64,000 nt of DNA from Haloplasma contractile (lineage in GTDB: Bacteria > Bacillota_I > Bacilli_A > Haloplasmatales > Haloplasmataceae): assembly GCA_016841945.1 (NCBI GenBank), contig JAENYC010000012.1, positions 1-64,000 on the forward strand, in the 5' to 3' direction. The translations under genes were made by a program, and so were the position numbers. The notes below the pieces were generated by a model that saw only the letters and a list, made by a program, of their open reading frames with translations, had not been told where the DNA came from and did not search any database. This document shows, piece after piece, positions 6,929-21,479 of this stretch; the stretch's first letter is position 1, and the number at the start of each line of letters is the position of its first letter.

Positions 6929-7186
6929 CTATCTTACTACTTCTTTATATTTATTTTCTAAAATTCTTTTTATCACAGGACAGGTAGGAAGGATTAATTT
7001 ATTCTTTTCTTTACTAAATTCAACAAAACAATCAACTAACTTTACAGAAAATCCTTTTCCTCTATATTCAGGATTAACATAAATATAACTACCAACTATA
7101 TAATTATCTTTTTCATCAAATAATATATATCCTACTTTCACATCATCAATAATATAATTAATGTGATTCTTTGTTATTTCAAACAT
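6929..7186 (-). CDS. Small GNAT-like N-acetyltransferase (YjdJ family)
   Basis: An 85-residue minimal GNAT-fold protein. The acetyl-CoA-binding block is VNPEYRGKGFSVKLV (about residues 37-51), followed by LPTCPVIKRIL, which is the hallmark of the YjdJ/COG2388 family. Members are truncated acetyltransferases with unknown substrates. It lies directly upstream of the SpoU methyltransferase (8-bp gap) and is probably co-transcribed with it. It is preceded by AAAGGAGTTGATGCT before ATG. Confidence 0.82.
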   Translation of the reverse strand: MFEITKNHINYIIDDVKVGYILFDEKDNYIVGSYIYVNPEYRGKGFSVKLVDCFVEFSKEKNKLILPTCPVIKRILENKYKEVVR

Positions 7187-7254: not shown

Positions 7255-7279
7255 AAAAGATACCAAAATGGTATCTTTT
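7255..7279 (-). terminator. Terminator after the 69-residue unknown gene
   Basis: AAAAGATACCA pairs with TGGTATCTTTT around a 3-nt loop, ending in TTTTTG on the minus strand, 7 bp after the stop codon. Confidence 0.75.
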
Positions 7280-7285
7280 ATCCTA

Positions 7286-7495
7286 CTACTCCATATATTC
7301 ATTAATCACAATCTCTTTCATCAAATTTTGAGGCACAAATATTATTTGAGCTGGTTTAATTAATTTAGCAATCGCATGAGCTGTCACAATTAAATCATAT
7401 ATATTATGGTTACATGCTATCTTATCTATTAAATCTTGATGAAATAATTCCCATATTCTATTTTCATAATTATATATTATTTTAAGTTTTATCAT
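7286..7495 (-). CDS. Small protein of unknown function
   Basis: I take ATG 7495 as the start (69 residues) because AAGAGGTGG lies 5 nt upstream; an in-frame start at 7525 lacks a ribosome site. The protein is soluble, with no signal or membrane segment. It reads like a small alpha/beta protein with a hydrophobic central part (IYDLIVTAHAIAKLI) and an Ile/Val-rich end. I do not recognise a family. It follows the HTH-TPR regulator and its peptide gene on the same strand and has its own terminator, so it may be part of that cluster. Confidence 0.55.
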   Translation of the reverse strand: MIKLKIIYNYENRIWELFHQDLIDKIACNHNIYDLIVTAHAIAKLIKPAQIIFVPQNLMKEIVINEYME

Positions 7496-7570
7496 TTCTA
7501 CCACCTCTTGGTAAAATGATATCACTTATTAATAACTAATTATGTCATTTTATGTACGAAAACAAGATTT

Positions 7571-7696
7571 TTATTTAACTTGAACACATATTATATCAGG
7601 ATATTTCTCTCCAGTAATCTCTACTTCATTTACTGCATAATTAAATCCTATTGCTACTAATAAACTTAACAACAATATTGCAATTATTTTTTTCAT
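7571..7696 (-). CDS. 41-residue exported-type peptide, candidate signalling propeptide
   Basis: Not previously called because of its size. It reads MKKIIAILLLSLLVAIGFNY, then a polar tail ending KYPDIICVQVK and TAA. The first 20 residues have the Lys-Lys start and hydrophobic core of a secretion signal or membrane segment. The start codon overlaps the stop codon of the upstream regulator (ATGA at 7693-7696), and AAGGAGG lies 10 nt before it, so the two are translationally coupled. This is the architecture of Phr, PapR, NprX and AimP propeptides beside their receptors. A mature signal would be expected from the C-terminal part. It could instead be a tiny membrane protein. Confidence 0.65.
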   Translation of the reverse strand: MKKIIAILLLSLLVAIGFNYAVNEVEITGEKYPDIICVQVK

Positions 7697-8991
7697 ATGC
7701 AATCATCCTCCTTCACTTGATTTTTCTTATTTAATAATGCAACTATTTTTTTATACTCATTTATACATTCATGATTATTATGATTCTGTTCTAAAAAACT
7801 TGCATACTCTCTCCTTACACGAATTTCTAATGATTTATTATTATTTATGCAATAAGGAATGAACTCTCTTTTATATGTAAGTAATTTATCTTGAATATCT
7901 TTTTTATTCAATTTATAATCATAATATTTAATATAAAATTTGTGTTTTTCATCGTTTTTTACAATAGATTTCAACATCAAAAAATACTTATATGCCTCTT
8001 TAAACCTTGATAGATTGATTAATAAATCTATATATTCAATGTATACATTAAATAATATTCTATCATTATTTGGATAATCATTAATTAATTCAAGTAATGC
8101 ATTTTCTGCTTTTTTTATTAAGTTAGATTTTTTATATAAAAATGCTAAATTAATCTTGCTGATTTTAATCATATTTGTATAATTATTTTGACTTGCTATA
8201 AAGTATATTTTCTCATAAAGTTTTAATCCTTTATCTGGAAACCATCTACTCATTTTAATCGCAATCAATATTTGACATTGTAATGATCGGTAAACGTTAT
8301 GGTTTATAGTAAATATTTTCTCAGCTTCTTCAGCATATTCTATACTTTTTAAATCATTGTGTAATTTACCTTGAATCCAAGCATACTTGTATAGAATCAT
8401 TGGTCGTATAAAACTAAATCGATCTTTTAGTTTTATCGCCAAATTTAAAATTTCTTCAGCGTCGTTATAATTTTTACAACACATTTGATAAGAAGCTAAA
8501 TTCTCAAGATACAATAATAATTCTTCATTATTAAAATGTATTTGTTGAGAATGTAATTTTTTTATGAGAGGTTTTACCTCATTAATCTTTTGATGATAGA
8601 TTAGGTAAATAAAGTTGTATAGCTCTATATGTATATCAAAACCATTTTTAATATTTTGATATTCTAATTCAACTAATCGATCATTTTTATATTCTATCGC
8701 AGTTAAAAACCGGTTTATAACTTCTTTGTTAATAGATGACAAATTTTTAGGAATAGGTTTATTTAATTTCTTTAAAATCTTGTTGACATACACATCAGAT
8801 GGGTCCACTTTATTACTTTCAATACGACTGTAATAAGAAACTGAACAAATATCTTTACATACCGATACTTGCTTCAATCCTTGAGCTAACCTTTCTTTTC
8901 TGATGTATGCTCCAATTGTGGGTTTTTTAACCTTTAGATTTTGATTGTTAATACGATAAAATACTGCCTTTTCAGAAATTTTTAAGTTCAT
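7693..8991 (-). CDS. HTH-TPR regulator, candidate RNPP-type peptide receptor
   Basis: A 432-residue protein with an XRE-type helix-turn-helix at residues about 26-78 (IGAYIRKERLAQGLKQVSV ... YYSRIESNKVDPSD) followed by an all-helical, TPR-like region to about residue 425 (for example the pairs around YNDAEEILNLAIKLKDR, YAEEAEKIF and KKAENALLELINDY). This domain order and length match the RNPP family (NprR, PlcR, AimR, Rap-like), in which TPRs bind a small imported peptide. The next gene, overlapping by 4 bases, encodes a small exported-type peptide. Codon use and composition match the neighbourhood. The targets are unknown; autoregulation of the pair is likely from family behaviour. Confidence 0.75.
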   Translation of the reverse strand: MNLKISEKAVFYRINNQNLKVKKPTIGAYIRKERLAQGLKQVSVCKDICSVSYYSRIESNKVDPSDVYVNKILKKLNKPIPKNLSSINKEVINRFLTAIEYKNDRLVELEYQNIKNGFDIHIELYNFIYLIYHQKINEVKPLIKKLHSQQIHFNNEELLLYLENLASYQMCCKNYNDAEEILNLAIKLKDRFSFIRPMILYKYAWIQGKLHNDLKSIEYAEEAEKIFTINHNVYRSLQCQILIAIKMSRWFPDKGLKLYEKIYFIASQNNYTNMIKISKINLAFLYKKSNLIKKAENALLELINDYPNNDRILFNVYIEYIDLLINLSRFKEAYKYFLMLKSIVKNDEKHKFYIKYYDYKLNKKDIQDKLLTYKREFIPYCINNNKSLEIRVRREYASFLEQNHNNHECINEYKKIVALLNKKNQVKEDDCI

Positions 8992-9144
8992 GAACTTTTC
9001 ACCCTATTCTATTTTATCAAAATATATCATAAAGTAATAAACCTTTTTATTTGCACAAATTAATATAACAAAAAATTTGTCAATTAAGTATAAAAAAGCG
9101 ATAAATAGTCTTCCTAATGTCAAAAAATTTACCACTAAAATAAT

Positions 9145-9171
9145 AAAAAGCTCGCTTATTACGAACTTTTT
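9145..9171 (-). terminator. pheST terminator
   Basis: AAAAAGCTCG and CGAACTTTTT pair with one wobble around a 7-nt loop; on the minus strand it ends in CTTTTTATTATTTT, 16 bp after the pheT stop. Confidence 0.7.
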
Positions 9172-9186
9172 ATTAATCATTATTTA

Positions 9187-11589
9187 TTATTTGCGCAAAA
9201 TTGCATCAAATTTATCTTCTAGACAAGATATTATACTTTCATATCTGTCATTTACTTCTTCATCTGTCAATGTCTTTTCAATATTTTCAAACACTAATGA
9301 AAATGCGATTGATTTCTTATTCTCTTCAATATGCTCTCCTTGATATACATCAAATACTTCTACAGATTTTAATATTCCTTTTCCTTGATTAATAATCGCA
9401 TCTTCAAGGGTTTTTGCTGTTATATCTTCATCTACTATAACAGCGATATCTCTTGTTACAGAAGGATACTTAGAAATGGTTTGATAATGCACTTCTTCTT
9501 GTTCTTTACTATATATTGCATCCAAATTAATCTCAAACACATAGGTTTCTTTTATACCATAATCTTTTTGAGTATTTGGATGAACTTGACCTAAAATTCC
9601 TATAATTTCATCATGAAGCATAATATTAGCTGTTCTCATTGGATGAAAATCTTCTGTAACATCTGTATTTTGAACAAAAGATACTTGATTTAAAATGTTT
9701 AACTTTTTAAATAAATTTTCCAATATTCCTTTGACATAGAAGAAATCAACCTTTATTTCTTGTTTTTGCCATTTAGTTGATGATACCACCCCTGTACAAG
9801 CCCCACTTAATAAATTCATCTCTTGAGGCATATCCTTTTTGAATCCATATCTTTTACCTATTTCGAATAATAATACATCAGACAAATTACGCGCATGATT
9901 ATAACTTACAATTTCAATTAAATTACTGATTAATCCATTGATCATCACTGAATGTATTTCACTCATTGGTTTTAATAGCTTAATTGGTTTTAAATTATCT
10001 TGTATATGTTTAAATCGGTTAACCTGGTTTTCATCCATAAGTGAATAAGTCATGACTTCATTCATACCACAAGCTAATAATGTGCGTCTAATTAATCGTT
10101 CCATTTTTTGTTGAGTTGTAAATCCACCAACTGTTTCTGTTTGTGGTAATGTCTTATTAAGATGGTGATAGCCATGTATACGTATTATTTCTTCTATTAA
10201 ATCTTCAGGAATTGTAATATCCGGTCTTCTTGAAGGCACTGTTACTACAAAGGAACCATCTAACACCACAAAATCAAACTTTAATCTTCTGAAAACATCA
10301 ATGACATCATTTTCTGATAATTGAATTCCTAAGACATGATTTATTTTTTCTAAACTAATTTTCACTAATTTTTCATTTTCTTCCAAATTTGAATCCATTG
10401 ACAATTGATCATCAATTTCTCCTGATGCGATATCTTTAAGTAATTGACAAGCTCTATTTAAAGCATATAAAGTACGATTTGGATCAACTTGTTTTTCATA
10501 TCTAAGACTCGCTTCACTTTTTAAATCTAACCTTTTATACGTTTTTCTAATGGTTATTGGATCAAAAACAGCACTTTCTAATAATACATCCGTTGAATTA
10601 TCATCAATTTCTGTATTTAAGCCCCCCATTACTCCAGCTAATGCAATTGGTCTTTTACCATCAGTGATCACTAAATCTGTAGGTAATAAGGTTCTTTTAA
10701 CATTATCTAAAGTGTGGATGGTCTCATTCTTTTTAGCATTTCTAACTAATATTTCTTGGCTATTTATTTTATTTAAATCAAAAGCGTGAAGCGGTTGACC
10801 TAATTCTAACATCACATAATTTGTTACATCTACCACATTATTAATTGGTCTTATACCACAAGCGATTAATATTGATTGAAGCCATTGAGGAGATTTATGA
10901 ACTTTTACATTTTTAATTTTTTTAGCATAATACAAAGAACAATCATTAGATTTAATTCTCACTTTAAAATGAGGATCTTTAGAAAAAGGGACATTTTCTC
11001 CAAATGGTTTTTTAAAATCTTTATCTAATATTGCACCTACTTCATAGGCGATGCCTAACATTGATAAACAATCAGAACGATTTGGTGTTAAGCCTAATTC
11101 TAAAATCGTATCATCAAAGCCTAAATAAGATATCGCATCTGTACCCACTTTGGCATCATCGTCTAAAACAGCAATACCCTCTTGAAAAGCTTGTGGGACA
11201 AACTTATTTTCTATTCCTAGTTCCTTCATAGAACATATCATACCGTGTGATTCAACCCCACGTAATTTAGCTTTTTTAATTTTCATACCACCAGGAAGTA
11301 CCGCACCAATCTTAGATACAACAACCTTTTGTCCTTTTTCAACATTAGGTGCTCCACATACAATTTGAACGACTTCTTCACCAATATCTACCATACAGAC
11401 ACTTAATTTATCTGCTTTAGGATGCTTTGTCTTCTCTAATACTTTACCTACCACACAATTTGTGACTTCTGTTAGAGGATAAACTTTTTCTACTTCAATA
11501 CCAGATAAAGTAATTTTTTTAGCTAATTCATCTGGATTTATATGATCTAAATCAATAAATTTCTTTAACCAGTTTATAGATAATAACAT
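9187..11589 (-). CDS. pheT: Phenylalanyl-tRNA synthetase beta subunit
   Basis: PheT, 800 residues, the normal bacterial length. With PheS it forms the (alpha-beta)2 enzyme charging tRNA-Phe. In order: an EMAP/tRNA-binding OB domain (about 40-150, with GKVLEKTKHPKADKLSVC), the B3/B4 editing domain (about 210-390, with RPINNVVDVTNYVM and HAFD), B5 (about 405-475), the catalytic-like core (about 490-680), and the C-terminal FDX-ACB anticodon domain (about 705-800, starting YHYQTISKYPSVTRDIAV without the first residue certain). It follows pheS by 10 bp with AAGGAGG before ATG. Confidence 0.97.
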   Translation of the reverse strand: MLLSINWLKKFIDLDHINPDELAKKITLSGIEVEKVYPLTEVTNCVVGKVLEKTKHPKADKLSVCMVDIGEEVVQIVCGAPNVEKGQKVVVSKIGAVLPGGMKIKKAKLRGVESHGMICSMKELGIENKFVPQAFQEGIAVLDDDAKVGTDAISYLGFDDTILELGLTPNRSDCLSMLGIAYEVGAILDKDFKKPFGENVPFSKDPHFKVRIKSNDCSLYYAKKIKNVKVHKSPQWLQSILIACGIRPINNVVDVTNYVMLELGQPLHAFDLNKINSQEILVRNAKKNETIHTLDNVKRTLLPTDLVITDGKRPIALAGVMGGLNTEIDDNSTDVLLESAVFDPITIRKTYKRLDLKSEASLRYEKQVDPNRTLYALNRACQLLKDIASGEIDDQLSMDSNLEENEKLVKISLEKINHVLGIQLSENDVIDVFRRLKFDFVVLDGSFVVTVPSRRPDITIPEDLIEEIIRIHGYHHLNKTLPQTETVGGFTTQQKMERLIRRTLLACGMNEVMTYSLMDENQVNRFKHIQDNLKPIKLLKPMSEIHSVMINGLISNLIEIVSYNHARNLSDVLLFEIGKRYGFKKDMPQEMNLLSGACTGVVSSTKWQKQEIKVDFFYVKGILENLFKKLNILNQVSFVQNTDVTEDFHPMRTANIMLHDEIIGILGQVHPNTQKDYGIKETYVFEINLDAIYSKEQEEVHYQTISKYPSVTRDIAVIVDEDITAKTLEDAIINQGKGILKSVEVFDVYQGEHIEENKKSIAFSLVFENIEKTLTDEEVNDRYESIISCLEDKFDAILRK

Positions 11590-17312: not shown

Positions 17313-20300
17313 TTACTTTCTTTTTATAAATTTTGTTAAGTACGATAAGAAGATAATCAGTGACACACCCTCTATCGCAAAAATACCACCAAATATACCA
17401 TACATTTCTAATTTTCGGAAATATTTATTACCAAAACTATCAAAAATGTATTTTATTTGTTTTGGTTCCATAGCTGAAATTTCTCTTATTGTAACTTCTT
17501 TTAAGTCTACAGCACTTAATAGTGGTAATAAGTTATCACTTACGACATCATATGTTGAATCAATGATATCCGTTAAGATTTGCATTTTTAATTCTTGGTC
17601 AACTAAACTTGTAAATTCAGATATTGTTAAGGTAAACAAATGAAGTATAGATTCATGAACAACATTTTCAAAATGACGGTCAACCGCTAATTTTCTAAGT
17701 AATTTTTTCATATCTTGTTTTAAGAATAAATCATCAAGTAACTCATCTAATGGAACTAAAACTAAATGACTAAACATAATATCGATTATTTGAGCCATAT
17801 TTTGTTTTAAGAAATCATTTTGATTTAAAGTAATGAGTAATTTTTCAACAAATCGATTAATTTCTTCTTCTGTAATACCTAATGTAAGATTTCTCACTTT
17901 ATTTGATAATATTTCTTTAGTTATAAATTTATTAATCAATAAAGAAACATCAAATACTATTTTATCTTTTCTATTATTTAGTGTGTCATAAGTTCCGTTA
18001 TTCACTAATACAAAAATATCTTTAAATTTTGATAAAATATCTTTTGTTTCATGTATATCTAATATGTCAAATAATTGACTCGATTCAAAATCATAGAAAT
18101 AAGACATCACAACATGAATAAAGCGTCTTGTTTTAATTTCTATTTCTTTACTCTCAAATATTTCACTTAAAAAATATTGCAATTCTTCTTTTCTTAACTC
18201 CAGTTTTGCATCTTTTAATCTAATTTTTCCAAGATTATCAAAGAAACGATTAAATTCTACATTTAAAGTTTCAATTTTCTTTGATATAAACTCAGGTAAC
18301 CTGTATTCAATGATTCTATAGACGGTTTCACGTATGAGTTTATCACCATTTATCGCTTTATACCCAACTTGTTGAACAACAGTTAATTCTTCAATGACAC
18401 GTTTAGTAACCGATTCATTTATTTCATCTCGGTAACTGATTAACCAACTTTTCACTGTCTCATCAATTCGTTCTAAAATAGTTGACATATTATAATTAAC
18501 TAATTCAATAAAACGCCCACCAAATAATTCATCAATACTATCATTATTATTTAAAATAGTGGTTATTTCGTAAATTACATAATTAGATAATGAACGTTGT
18601 TTTTCTCTAGAATATAAATAGGTTGAAACAAAATTGTATAAAAAGTTTTCTAAACTCAATTTTGTTGTATCAGGTAATACATCATCTAATTTTTTATTAA
18701 TAATATCATCTATTTTTTCATGATAACTTTTCACGACTTGAATCAAGAAATGACTATCGCTAAATTTATGAATAAATTTTAATACTTCATTTTCTATTAA
18801 AGAATTAATTTTACTTTCAACTGTATTTATGTTTAATTCTTCAGATAGCTCTTTTATAGTTTTCCCTGATTTAAACTTATTCGCGAGATAGCGGCTAATC
18901 GCATTGCTTGATTCATTCACTTTTTGAGTAAATAAATTCGCAAATACTTGAACGAATATTTCTGTTTCAATATTTTTTAAATTAAATTTCAGCATCTCAT
19001 CCGTTAACTTAGTTGCTAACATAGCATTATGCTCACGTAAATATTTTATGATATAAACTGTTGATTTTTTCACAATTTTTTCATTATTTTCATCTAAATA
19101 TGTTTTTAAAACCTTATAATCATCTTTCTCGATATTTTTAACGAACTCACTTTTCAATTTATTCTCGTTATTTTTAATCATGTTATTAATGCTGTCTTCA
19201 GATAATAAATTATTAGAAACCACATTTCCCATTGCTTTTGCTAAAACAGGAATTTGCTTTGGAATAATACCTTGTAAACGTTTAATTCCAAACAGTGGTT
19301 TATACGGTCTAAAAATAAAGAATATCGCAATCACATTCGTTAAATAACCAAGTAAAGCATAAATTCCAATGGATGTAAATAAAACACCTAAATTTTGAAA
19401 ATTGAGTATAAAATTATAATCATTAAAGATAGATAAATTAACACCTAAAAACAATCCTACGAAACCACCTAAAAATGCCCCTACAATTGTTAAAGGTTTT
19501 AATTTTGTTCCCATAAAAGTTTGCATCATTTCGAGTACTTCTTCATTACTTAGACTCTTGATATTGTCTTCAACAACTTTTGCGATATTACCTTCTAAGA
19601 TATTACTTAAGCCATTATCTAAGTAATCCATAATCGCATTTACCACATTTTCACTTAAATTATCAATAGAGTTAACATGTTTAAATAAATCATGCACTTT
19701 ATATTCTTTATTATCTTCAATAAAGTTTCTTAACGATTTTAATATCACATCTATAATAACATCGCTTTTAAAGACGGTATCTTTATTTTTACTAAGTACA
19801 GAAGCCATATTATGGTTCACAAAATATTGGTCTAAATTTTTATATACAATATCTAAAATATCATCATAATTTTTATTTAATTGTTTATTAATACCATCTT
19901 GAAACTTCTCTGCATAATCTTCTACTTTAGAATCTAAAATAAAGGTATTAATCGGCATTTTTGTGATACTTTTTAATGACTGACTAATTTGTTTCTTCAC
20001 TAACGCTAAGATATCTTCATTATAAATGATATGTTTTGTAATTATGGTTACCGTTAAATTATTAACGAAAGGTTTAAAATTGATTGAAAATAATTCATTT
20101 ATCTTCTTATTTAGAAAATCAGCATGTTCGATATCTTTAGATAAATAGCGTTCACATAAGAACGTCAATATACGATGGACTTGACTAGAAATTAATCTTG
20201 CAGTCAAAATATTATTAACTTCAAGTTCATTTATAATACTTGATATACTCTTTTGATGTAATAAATCTACGACTTGCTGAGAAATTGTTTTAGAAAGGTC

Positions 20301-21479
20301 TTCAATATCAATTCCTTTTAACATCTCAACTATCTTATTAATAATATCATATTTTTGAGTGAAATTTTCAATTAAAAACATTCTAATAGCGGATAAAATT
20401 AATCGTTTAATCGTTTGTTGGTCATATATCGTCTGATCAATAGAAGATTCTATTAGTTCTTCTATTTCATGACTATTTCTCTGTACAACCTCTATCAAGC
20501 GGTCAATAATACTTGGTAATTGATTCTCAAGAAATCTTTCAACTTCTATTCTTAAATCACCTGTAAATAATTCAATAATTGGTTTCTCAATCTTCTTTAA
20601 TGCGACTAATAGTCCATCACAAAATACCTCAATTGATTCTTTTGAGTTTGGATTTTGTAAATATTCTGTAAATAAATCATATAATTTCTCTAAACTTTTC
20701 TCAGAGATAAAATAACTTAATTTCTTGTCCCCAATGTATGATTCTAAAGTTTCTACAAAACTATCAAAATCTAAATCTCGATATAACTTACTAATCAAAG
20801 TTTGTATATCACGGTCATTTTTATAACGCATTTCATCAAATATATTATTTAGTAGTTCATTTAGATTATGGATGATAATATTTGTGATTTCATCACCAAT
20901 CAGTTCATCTAATGATACCTCATGATAATTCTTATATAAATCCTTGATAATCGTTTCTAATACACGTTTTTCATTTATAACGGTTAAAATTTGTTTTGTG
21001 ATGGATACTGCCAAATTATAAGCCTGTTCACTTGATACAATATCATTAAGTTCTATACTTTTGCTCATTTTAATAAATGTTTTTGTAAGATTTTTTTCCA
21101 AATATTTACTTAAAAAATCTAATATTTTATCTGTAGTATTATCAAAACCAGGTATATCATTTAAACTGACATTTTTTGTATTTTTAAAAATAGCATCATT
21201 AAAGAAAGAAACCACTGTCTTTGACACAGCTTCTTTTAGTTCTTTTTTATGAAACTGACTTTTTAATGTATTATGATTAATAATTTCTTTTTCAACTAAT
21301 AAAGAAAGGTTTTTTTCTAGGTCCTTACGTGTTTTAACAATCACACCACCTAATTTAAACCTTCCAATTCCATATTCACGAAATAACATCTTAATTGCGA
21401 CATCATTTGTGATATATCCAGTCCATGCACCTGTTAATACCATGACAATAATAAATATTGGAGTAAGTAATTCTATCAT
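17313..21479 (-). CDS. Giant protein with two tandem DUF445 (YheB-like) units
   Basis: A 1388-residue protein. DUF445 proteins are usually about 400 residues. Here the N-terminal membrane helix plus the block GYITNDVAIKMLFREYGIG (about residues 22-40) is repeated near residues 665-745: two membrane helices followed by GYLTNVIAIFFIFRPYKPL and IIPKQIPVLAKAMG. Between and after them are long, helix-rich Lys/Glu/Ile-rich stretches, with a final membrane helix near 1362-1384. It is therefore an internal duplication or fusion of two YheB-like units, with large extra-membrane helical bundles. Function is unknown. The start has GGGGGGTGTCATCCC before ATG. It leads an operon with the HdeD-like protein. 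Confidence 0.75.
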   Translation of the reverse strand: MIELLTPIFIIVMVLTGAWTGYITNDVAIKMLFREYGIGRFKLGGVIVKTRKDLEKNLSLLVEKEIINHNTLKSQFHKKELKEAVSKTVVSFFNDAIFKNTKNVSLNDIPGFDNTTDKILDFLSKYLEKNLTKTFIKMSKSIELNDIVSSEQAYNLAVSITKQILTVINEKRVLETIIKDLYKNYHEVSLDELIGDEITNIIIHNLNELLNNIFDEMRYKNDRDIQTLISKLYRDLDFDSFVETLESYIGDKKLSYFISEKSLEKLYDLFTEYLQNPNSKESIEVFCDGLLVALKKIEKPIIELFTGDLRIEVERFLENQLPSIIDRLIEVVQRNSHEIEELIESSIDQTIYDQQTIKRLILSAIRMFLIENFTQKYDIINKIVEMLKGIDIEDLSKTISQQVVDLLHQKSISSIINELEVNNILTARLISSQVHRILTFLCERYLSKDIEHADFLNKKINELFSINFKPFVNNLTVTIITKHIIYNEDILALVKKQISQSLKSITKMPINTFILDSKVEDYAEKFQDGINKQLNKNYDDILDIVYKNLDQYFVNHNMASVLSKNKDTVFKSDVIIDVILKSLRNFIEDNKEYKVHDLFKHVNSIDNLSENVVNAIMDYLDNGLSNILEGNIAKVVEDNIKSLSNEEVLEMMQTFMGTKLKPLTIVGAFLGGFVGLFLGVNLSIFNDYNFILNFQNLGVLFTSIGIYALLGYLTNVIAIFFIFRPYKPLFGIKRLQGIIPKQIPVLAKAMGNVVSNNLLSEDSINNMIKNNENKLKSEFVKNIEKDDYKVLKTYLDENNEKIVKKSTVYIIKYLREHNAMLATKLTDEMLKFNLKNIETEIFVQVFANLFTQKVNESSNAISRYLANKFKSGKTIKELSEELNINTVESKINSLIENEVLKFIHKFSDSHFLIQVVKSYHEKIDDIINKKLDDVLPDTTKLSLENFLYNFVSTYLYSREKQRSLSNYVIYEITTILNNNDSIDELFGGRFIELVNYNMSTILERIDETVKSWLISYRDEINESVTKRVIEELTVVQQVGYKAINGDKLIRETVYRIIEYRLPEFISKKIETLNVEFNRFFDNLGKIRLKDAKLELRKEELQYFLSEIFESKEIEIKTRRFIHVVMSYFYDFESSQLFDILDIHETKDILSKFKDIFVLVNNGTYDTLNNRKDKIVFDVSLLINKFITKEILSNKVRNLTLGITEEEINRFVEKLLITLNQNDFLKQNMAQIIDIMFSHLVLVPLDELLDDLFLKQDMKKLLRKLAVDRHFENVVHESILHLFTLTISEFTSLVDQELKMQILTDIIDSTYDVVSDNLLPLLSAVDLKEVTIREISAMEPKQIKYIFDSFGNKYFRKLEMYGIFGGIFAIEGVSLIIFLSYLTKFIKRK

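Follow-up and report, generated by a model that had tools for sequence, protein, structure and literature searches.

The 64,000-nt stretch of Haloplasma contractile DNA analysed here (the window) belongs to a 3.43-Mb genome, in which contig C3 bears the cassette described below. Three minus-strand genes, flanked by pheT (9187-11589) and by a GNAT gene (6929-7186), encode a receptor, a 41-aa peptide and a 69-aa protein (Table 1). The start codon of the peptide gene and the stop codon of the receptor gene overlap as ATGA (7693-7696). The gene for the 69-aa protein starts with ATG at 7495; its product would have 79 aa if an upstream GTG were used. The original prediction, made from the sequence alone, had described a 432-residue HTH-TPR protein, a stop/start overlap with a 41-codon gene carrying its own AAGGAGG site, and a peptide with a basic start, a hydrophobic core and a polar tail. 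The first was borne out by the ORF 7693-8991(-), an HTH_3 match above the cut-off and a modelled TPR fold, the overlap and the ribosome-binding site were both seen in the sequence, and the description of the peptide is accurate for 7571-7696(-).

Table 1. Features of the cassette and its flanks (positions in the window).
Feature	Position	Strand	Evidence
Terminator-like hairpin (AAAAGATACCA/TGGTATCTTTT) 3' of the 69-aa gene	7255..7279	-	z -2.6
69-aa conserved partner protein	7286..7495	-	ORF and orthologue searches
ACATAA-N2-TGACATAAT, covering the -35 region of the 69-aa gene, candidate operator	7539..7555	-	alignment
41-aa propeptide gene, MKKIIAILLLSLLVAIGFNYAVNEVEITGEKYPDIICVQVK, tail GEKYPDIICVQVK	7571..7696	-	ORF; kept in relatives
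Conserved core codons G-E-K-Y-P-D-I	7592..7612	-	GE-x-YPD codons at 7595-7612
NprR-like receptor/regulator, 432 aa	7693..8991	-	ORF, Pfam HTH_3, AF2, Foldseek, profile search
Shine-Dalgarno AAGGAGG of the propeptide gene	7707..7713	-	sequence
Asn281 codon	8149..8151	-	aligned with RapF Asn227, NprR SNMG, RapI MNIG
Extended -10-like sequence TTTTGATAAAAT before the receptor, conserved	9011..9022	-	alignment
Palindrome TTTGTGCAAA 5' of the receptor, candidate regulator site	9050..9059	-	alignment
Terminator-like hairpin between pheT and the receptor	9141..9175	-	z -4.4

The cassette is surrounded by chromosomal housekeeping genes (pheT, GNAT, trmH-type). As terminator-like hairpins are present on both flanks, the three genes probably form their own transcription unit. 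The gene order receptor, (peptide), 69-aa gene and GNAT was read in seven of the eight Haloplasmataceae genomes, the cassette of G004 being interrupted by contig ends, and pheT was read 5' of the receptor in the 64-kb window and in G006. Elsewhere in the window (17313-21479), a 1388-aa protein has two similar membrane segments and resembles a duplicated form of a shorter family.

The receptor consists of an XRE-type HTH (residues about 26-75) followed by nine TPR-like helix pairs (residues 86-425, counted on the AlphaFold2 model). Pfam HTH_3 matched residues 30-80 with an E-value of 6.9e-8, over the cut-off, and the Pfam TPR models matched only weakly, below the cut-off. The AlphaFold2 model (69 sequences) showed the HTH and the nine helix pairs with a pLDDT of 90.4 and a pTM of 0.82. 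A single-sequence search of the PDB with the receptor gave no match, and NprR was reached by profiles only: for the profile built from the five intact Haloplasmataceae receptors, the best match was NprR (4gpk, E 1.1e-12, profile positions 93-429), followed by RapI (1.2e-9) and, at the HTH end, by PlcR (3.6e-7, residues 24-139). Likewise, Foldseek placed NprR chains on ranks 1-8, then Rap proteins; the match to NprR 5dbk_B had a TM score of 0.81 by target, an E-value of 2.1e-8 and 3.4 A over 357 columns. The structure prediction proposed as a check of the helical region thus indicates that it is TPR-like, with NprR as its nearest solved relative by both profile and fold. Based on sequence and model, NprR is the best-supported subfamily for this receptor, a placement that is tentative given an identity of only 17-19% in the structural match.

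Exactly one orthologue of the receptor is present in each of the eight Haloplasmataceae genomes, and no paralogue was found in its own genome. A scan of the genome contigs with the single receptor sequence yielded zero relatives, and the scan with the family alignment yielded 195. No match was obtained by tblastn of the receptor against the plasmid and phage collections. Two of the relatives, L066 (labelled Gammaproteobacteria) and L088 (labelled Bacillales), are near-identical and probably come from a misbinned MAG contig.

A peptide gene occupies the cassette position in six of the eight Haloplasmataceae genomes. Besides the 41-aa propeptide of H. contractile, the ORFs with the likeliest starts encode 43 aa in G001, 42 aa in G003 and 47 aa in G005; the contig of G004 starts inside the peptide gene, leaving the tail PDIVTVLPIK. 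The precursor of G006, which also shows the ATGA overlap, has 111 aa and carries EKLPDPV at its extreme C-terminus. The motif GE-x-YPD-[P/I] is common to all four complete short peptides, in which the identity before the motif is only 4-30%. In the five fully conserved codons of the motif, all five third positions are variable among these four peptides and none of the ten first and second positions; with five variable sites placed randomly on the 15 codon positions, exactly the third positions would be hit once in 3003 cases. On these codon patterns, the peptide tail is under purifying selection. The occurrence of the same tail type in six genomes of the family and the restriction of variation to third codon positions make the pattern more than chance.

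The end of the peptide had been singled out as the part to compare among relatives: GE-x-YPD-[P/I] was kept in 4/4 complete short peptides, while the last 5-8 residues vary. Absence or a frameshift of the small gene in close relatives had been named as counting against a signalling pair, and the gene was not found at the cassette in the sister species G002 and G007, which keep the receptor and the 69-aa gene; it is present in the six others. A search with the GE-x-YPD DNA pattern gave no matches in G002, G004, G006 and G007 and two further ones in the H. contractile genome (contigs C2 and C69), a level attainable by chance. The 41-aa peptide also matched Vsr and PHROG entries weakly, which was dismissed as chance.

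In two relatives, an intact peptide ORF adjoins an impaired receptor gene. The receptor gene of G003 has two in-frame stops within a short stretch (L003, 1501-2811), and that of G005 (L007) is without about 60 codons. G003 is an isolate with about 150-fold coverage according to the contig name, and its lesion may be real; G005 is an 85%-complete MAG. Both a peptide without an intact receptor and a receptor without a peptide therefore occur in the assemblies, where sequencing or assembly error is possible, above all in the MAGs.

In RNPP receptors that bind peptides, a shared asparagine, N227 in RapF, holds the backbone of the peptide (PMC3601957); by alignment, Asn281 of the receptor corresponds to it. 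An alignment of 79 receptors shows the anchor asparagine in 25 of the 25 that are accompanied by a candidate peptide gene and in NprR; of the 53 remaining receptors, 26 have it. The candidate peptides were chosen by a simple filter and by eye, and the counts ignore kinship. The co-occurrence is suggestive rather than a formal test. Of the two sister species without the peptide gene, G002 has Asn at this position and G007 has Leu. Six of six receptors from a family of another order (f11), all without a peptide, carry R, L or I there. In most Izemoplasma-type receptors (L009, L010/L091, L034-L039, L053, L055), the anchor position is occupied by I; no peptide gene was detected beside these receptors and they have no anchor Asn, so they are possibly peptide-independent orphans. 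Two of them (L009 and L010) sit 3' of dnaD- and nth-type genes.

The 69-aa gene was found in 14 of 395 genomes of the class, namely one orthologue in each of the eight Haloplasmataceae genomes and six in family f11. In all 14 it lies 3' of an NprR-like receptor (contig ends intervene in G004), and in the six f11 genomes it directly follows the NprR-like HTH-TPR gene, with no convincing peptide ORF in the interval between them. The f11 neighbourhood is different, with an mrp-type ATPase gene before the pair in most genomes and ytxH-type and murC genes after it. The suggested role of the 69-residue gene as partner or target gains strength, as this gene is the most constant neighbour of the receptor. 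No family in Pfam or NCBIfam was matched by the 69-aa protein. The modelled fold is tentatively beta3-alpha-beta2; a HicB-like fold (TTHA1013, TM 0.50, E 0.48) is not claimed, because only one of the five AF2 models was confident. The most likely role of the 69-aa protein is that of a cytoplasmic effector or adaptor within the response that the cassette regulates.

The promoter region of the 69-aa gene carries a conserved block in the Haloplasmataceae with YPD-type peptides: ACATAA-N2-TGACATAAT has one exact copy per genome in four genomes and a copy with one mismatch in a fifth. In f11, a different block, ACGACAAAATAAACT[T/G], lies before the 69-aa gene, upstream of a TATAAT box; four of the six genomes contain a single exact copy, which is the one at the cassette. 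A perfect -10 combined with a conserved block in place of a good -35 would have the look of an activator-dependent promoter; the conservation of the blocks may partly reflect shared descent. Before the receptor, the position of the palindrome is kept and its sequence nearly kept in most relatives, with a degenerate form in G006, and it could be an autoregulatory site or the site of another regulator. Matches to sigma-70-type promoters were at the level of shuffled sequences and were set aside. In the genome-wide regulon search with the operator-like elements, exact copies were found at the cassette only and weaker ones were no more frequent than in the control; we therefore propose no regulon.

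Taken together, the NprR-like TPR fold, the conserved peptide tail and the anchor asparagine support the original prediction of an RNPP-type receptor-propeptide pair. We consider it probable that the cassette is an NprR-NprX-like quorum-sensing system with the new 69-aa protein as its main local target. Gene structure, homology, predicted fold, tail conservation, the constancy of the 69-aa gene and the uniqueness of the operator-like element come directly from the analysis; export, processing, import, binding, the DNA target and the sign of regulation we infer from homology. Translation of the receptor and the propeptide would be coupled, and the 41-aa propeptide would leave the cell through Sec and be cut down to a short stretch around the GEKYPDI core. 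An oligopeptide permease would re-import this peptide; OppA-type proteins are present in all eight Haloplasmataceae genomes, which is consistent with such a step. The imported peptide would fill the concave groove of the TPR superhelix, partly held by Asn281, and its binding would change the conformation or the oligomeric state of the receptor. NprX shifts NprR from dimer to tetramer (PMC4970707). The HTH of the receptor would then target the conserved element that covers the -35 region of the 69-aa gene, with activation of this gene as the most likely effect, and perhaps the receptor's own promoter as well.

Another possibility, put forward tentatively, is that the receptor and the 69-aa protein form an ancient pair of genes, shared by two orders of Bacilli, in which peptide sensing is an optional layer. 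Some lineages might have kept a PD-type pheromone together with the anchor Asn, and others, without both, might use another input. The 69-aa protein could conceivably be an obligatory output of the module or a direct partner of the receptor.

It is rather unlikely that this core module answers a non-peptide input altogether, with the peptide as an accessory modulator or antagonist in some Haloplasmataceae. The 69-aa gene is found in 14/14 genomes of the two orders and the peptide in only six, the f11 receptors lack both a peptide and the anchor Asn, and G002 and G007 retain the receptor/69-aa pair without a peptide, all of which would agree with such a module; however, the peptide-bearing genomes keep the anchor Asn, and their tail is under purifying selection. 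Moreover, a PD-tailed precursor is already present in G006, which branches deepest among the Haloplasmataceae in the tree, and the loss of the peptide in G002 and G007 is therefore the simpler reading.

A receptor that is mainly Rap-like, controlling sporulation by protein contact that the peptide relieves, is very improbable. Apo-NprR does act on Spo0F (PMC4970707), the TPR domain matches both NprR and Rap, and Spo0A is present in 8/8 Haloplasmataceae genomes. However, with B. subtilis Spo0F as the query, a stand-alone Spo0F was not evident in most of the eight genomes, since, a 131-aa frame in G000 apart, the matches belonged to distinctly longer ORFs, and DNA is the target suggested by the conserved HTH and the operator-like element. 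A sporulation role of the cassette is possible, not supported. Least probable of all is that the small ORF encodes a stable membrane micropeptide, or a protein like a type I toxin, that simply lies beside the regulator. The basic start and the hydrophobic stretch are compatible with such a protein, but the hydrophobic part diverges while the tail is conserved, the long G006 precursor has the PD motif at its extreme C-terminus, and NprR relatives of Bacillaceae are accompanied by the same tail type.

Under the preferred reading, an NprR-NprX-like system, Haloplasmataceae, which are related to the wall-less Mollicutes, would possess an NprR-type pheromone circuit, and this suggests a distribution of PD-type pheromones beyond Bacillaceae. 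The 69-aa family would be the first candidate output of the circuit, and the receptor lineages that lack the anchor Asn as well as the peptide, beside a constant partner gene, offer a natural experiment. At the level of titles and abstracts, the papers searched that join Haloplasma and quorum sensing contained nothing on such a system, and Haloplasma is not mentioned in the main text of two large RRNPP surveys. The NprR type itself is known; the new elements are an NprR-like cassette with a new conserved partner and the lineage-specific absence of the peptide layer.

Among the known systems, AimR-AimP also combines an HTH/TPR receptor with an adjoining propeptide but is phage-borne; this assignment was rejected based on the housekeeping context, the lack of a phage tblastn match and the absence of AimR among the matches listed. 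PlcR-PapR shares the N-terminal HTH match given above and the principle of a peptide-activated transcription factor. However, the overall folds match poorly (TM 0.26-0.38 by query), the active PapR peptide lies at the very end of its precursor, and PlcR has five TPRs and about 285 aa compared with nine helix pairs and 432 aa here, which led to its rejection. Rap-Phr pairs resemble the cassette in the TPR fold, the anchor asparagine and the adjoining small propeptide, but Rap has an N-terminal 3-helix bundle and no HTH, and the Phr sequences differ; with HTH_3 at residues 30-80, the receptor was not assigned to this type.

Closer counterparts are found among the NprR relatives of Bacillaceae. 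A Rossellomorea relative is accompanied by a peptide with the tail EEEFPDPTIIKVLS, others have DDELPDP, SDYPDW and other tails, and on a plasmid of Priestia koreensis FS-1, for which plasmid-borne NprR-NprX systems are listed in PMC10075063, EEEFPEPTVAQVLI adjoins an NprR-type receptor. The Priestia and Rossellomorea pairs share with the cassette a receptor followed by a propeptide whose core has the form acidic-x-[F/Y]-P-[D/E]-P; their own propeptides have 42 aa and EEEFP[D/E]P tails. They differ in that their receptors are about 20% identical to the Haloplasmataceae one and in that the 69-aa gene is confined to Haloplasmataceae and f11 among the 395 class genomes. Multi-repeat precursors were also observed 3' of NprR relatives in Pseudalkalibacillus, Bacillus, Rossellomorea and Fictibacillus (L076, L078, L079, L085, L102, L106), with tandem pheromone-like repeats such as YDENPP, AVDNSPGIKS and AHDDNPR.

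Compared with NprR-NprX, the cassette differs in its neighbour, a 69-aa protein in place of the NprA protease of the B. cereus group (typical, not definitional), in the ATGA overlap of the peptide and receptor genes, in its host, Haloplasmataceae (Mycoplasmatota in NCBI taxonomy), and in the absence of an evident stand-alone Spo0F in most Haloplasmataceae genomes. The active heptapeptide of NprX is SKPDIVG (PMC5641580); it derives from an internal part of the tail of its precursor, which has 43 aa (PMC4147580). In both systems a PD core lies inside the tail, SKPDIVG in NprX and GEKYPDI here, although the remainder differs; the core and its internal position would fit the same kind of signal, and so short a motif can also converge. 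Both also combine an HTH and nine-TPR receptor of about 420-430 aa with a downstream same-strand propeptide of about 42 aa, and both receptors carry the anchor asparagine.
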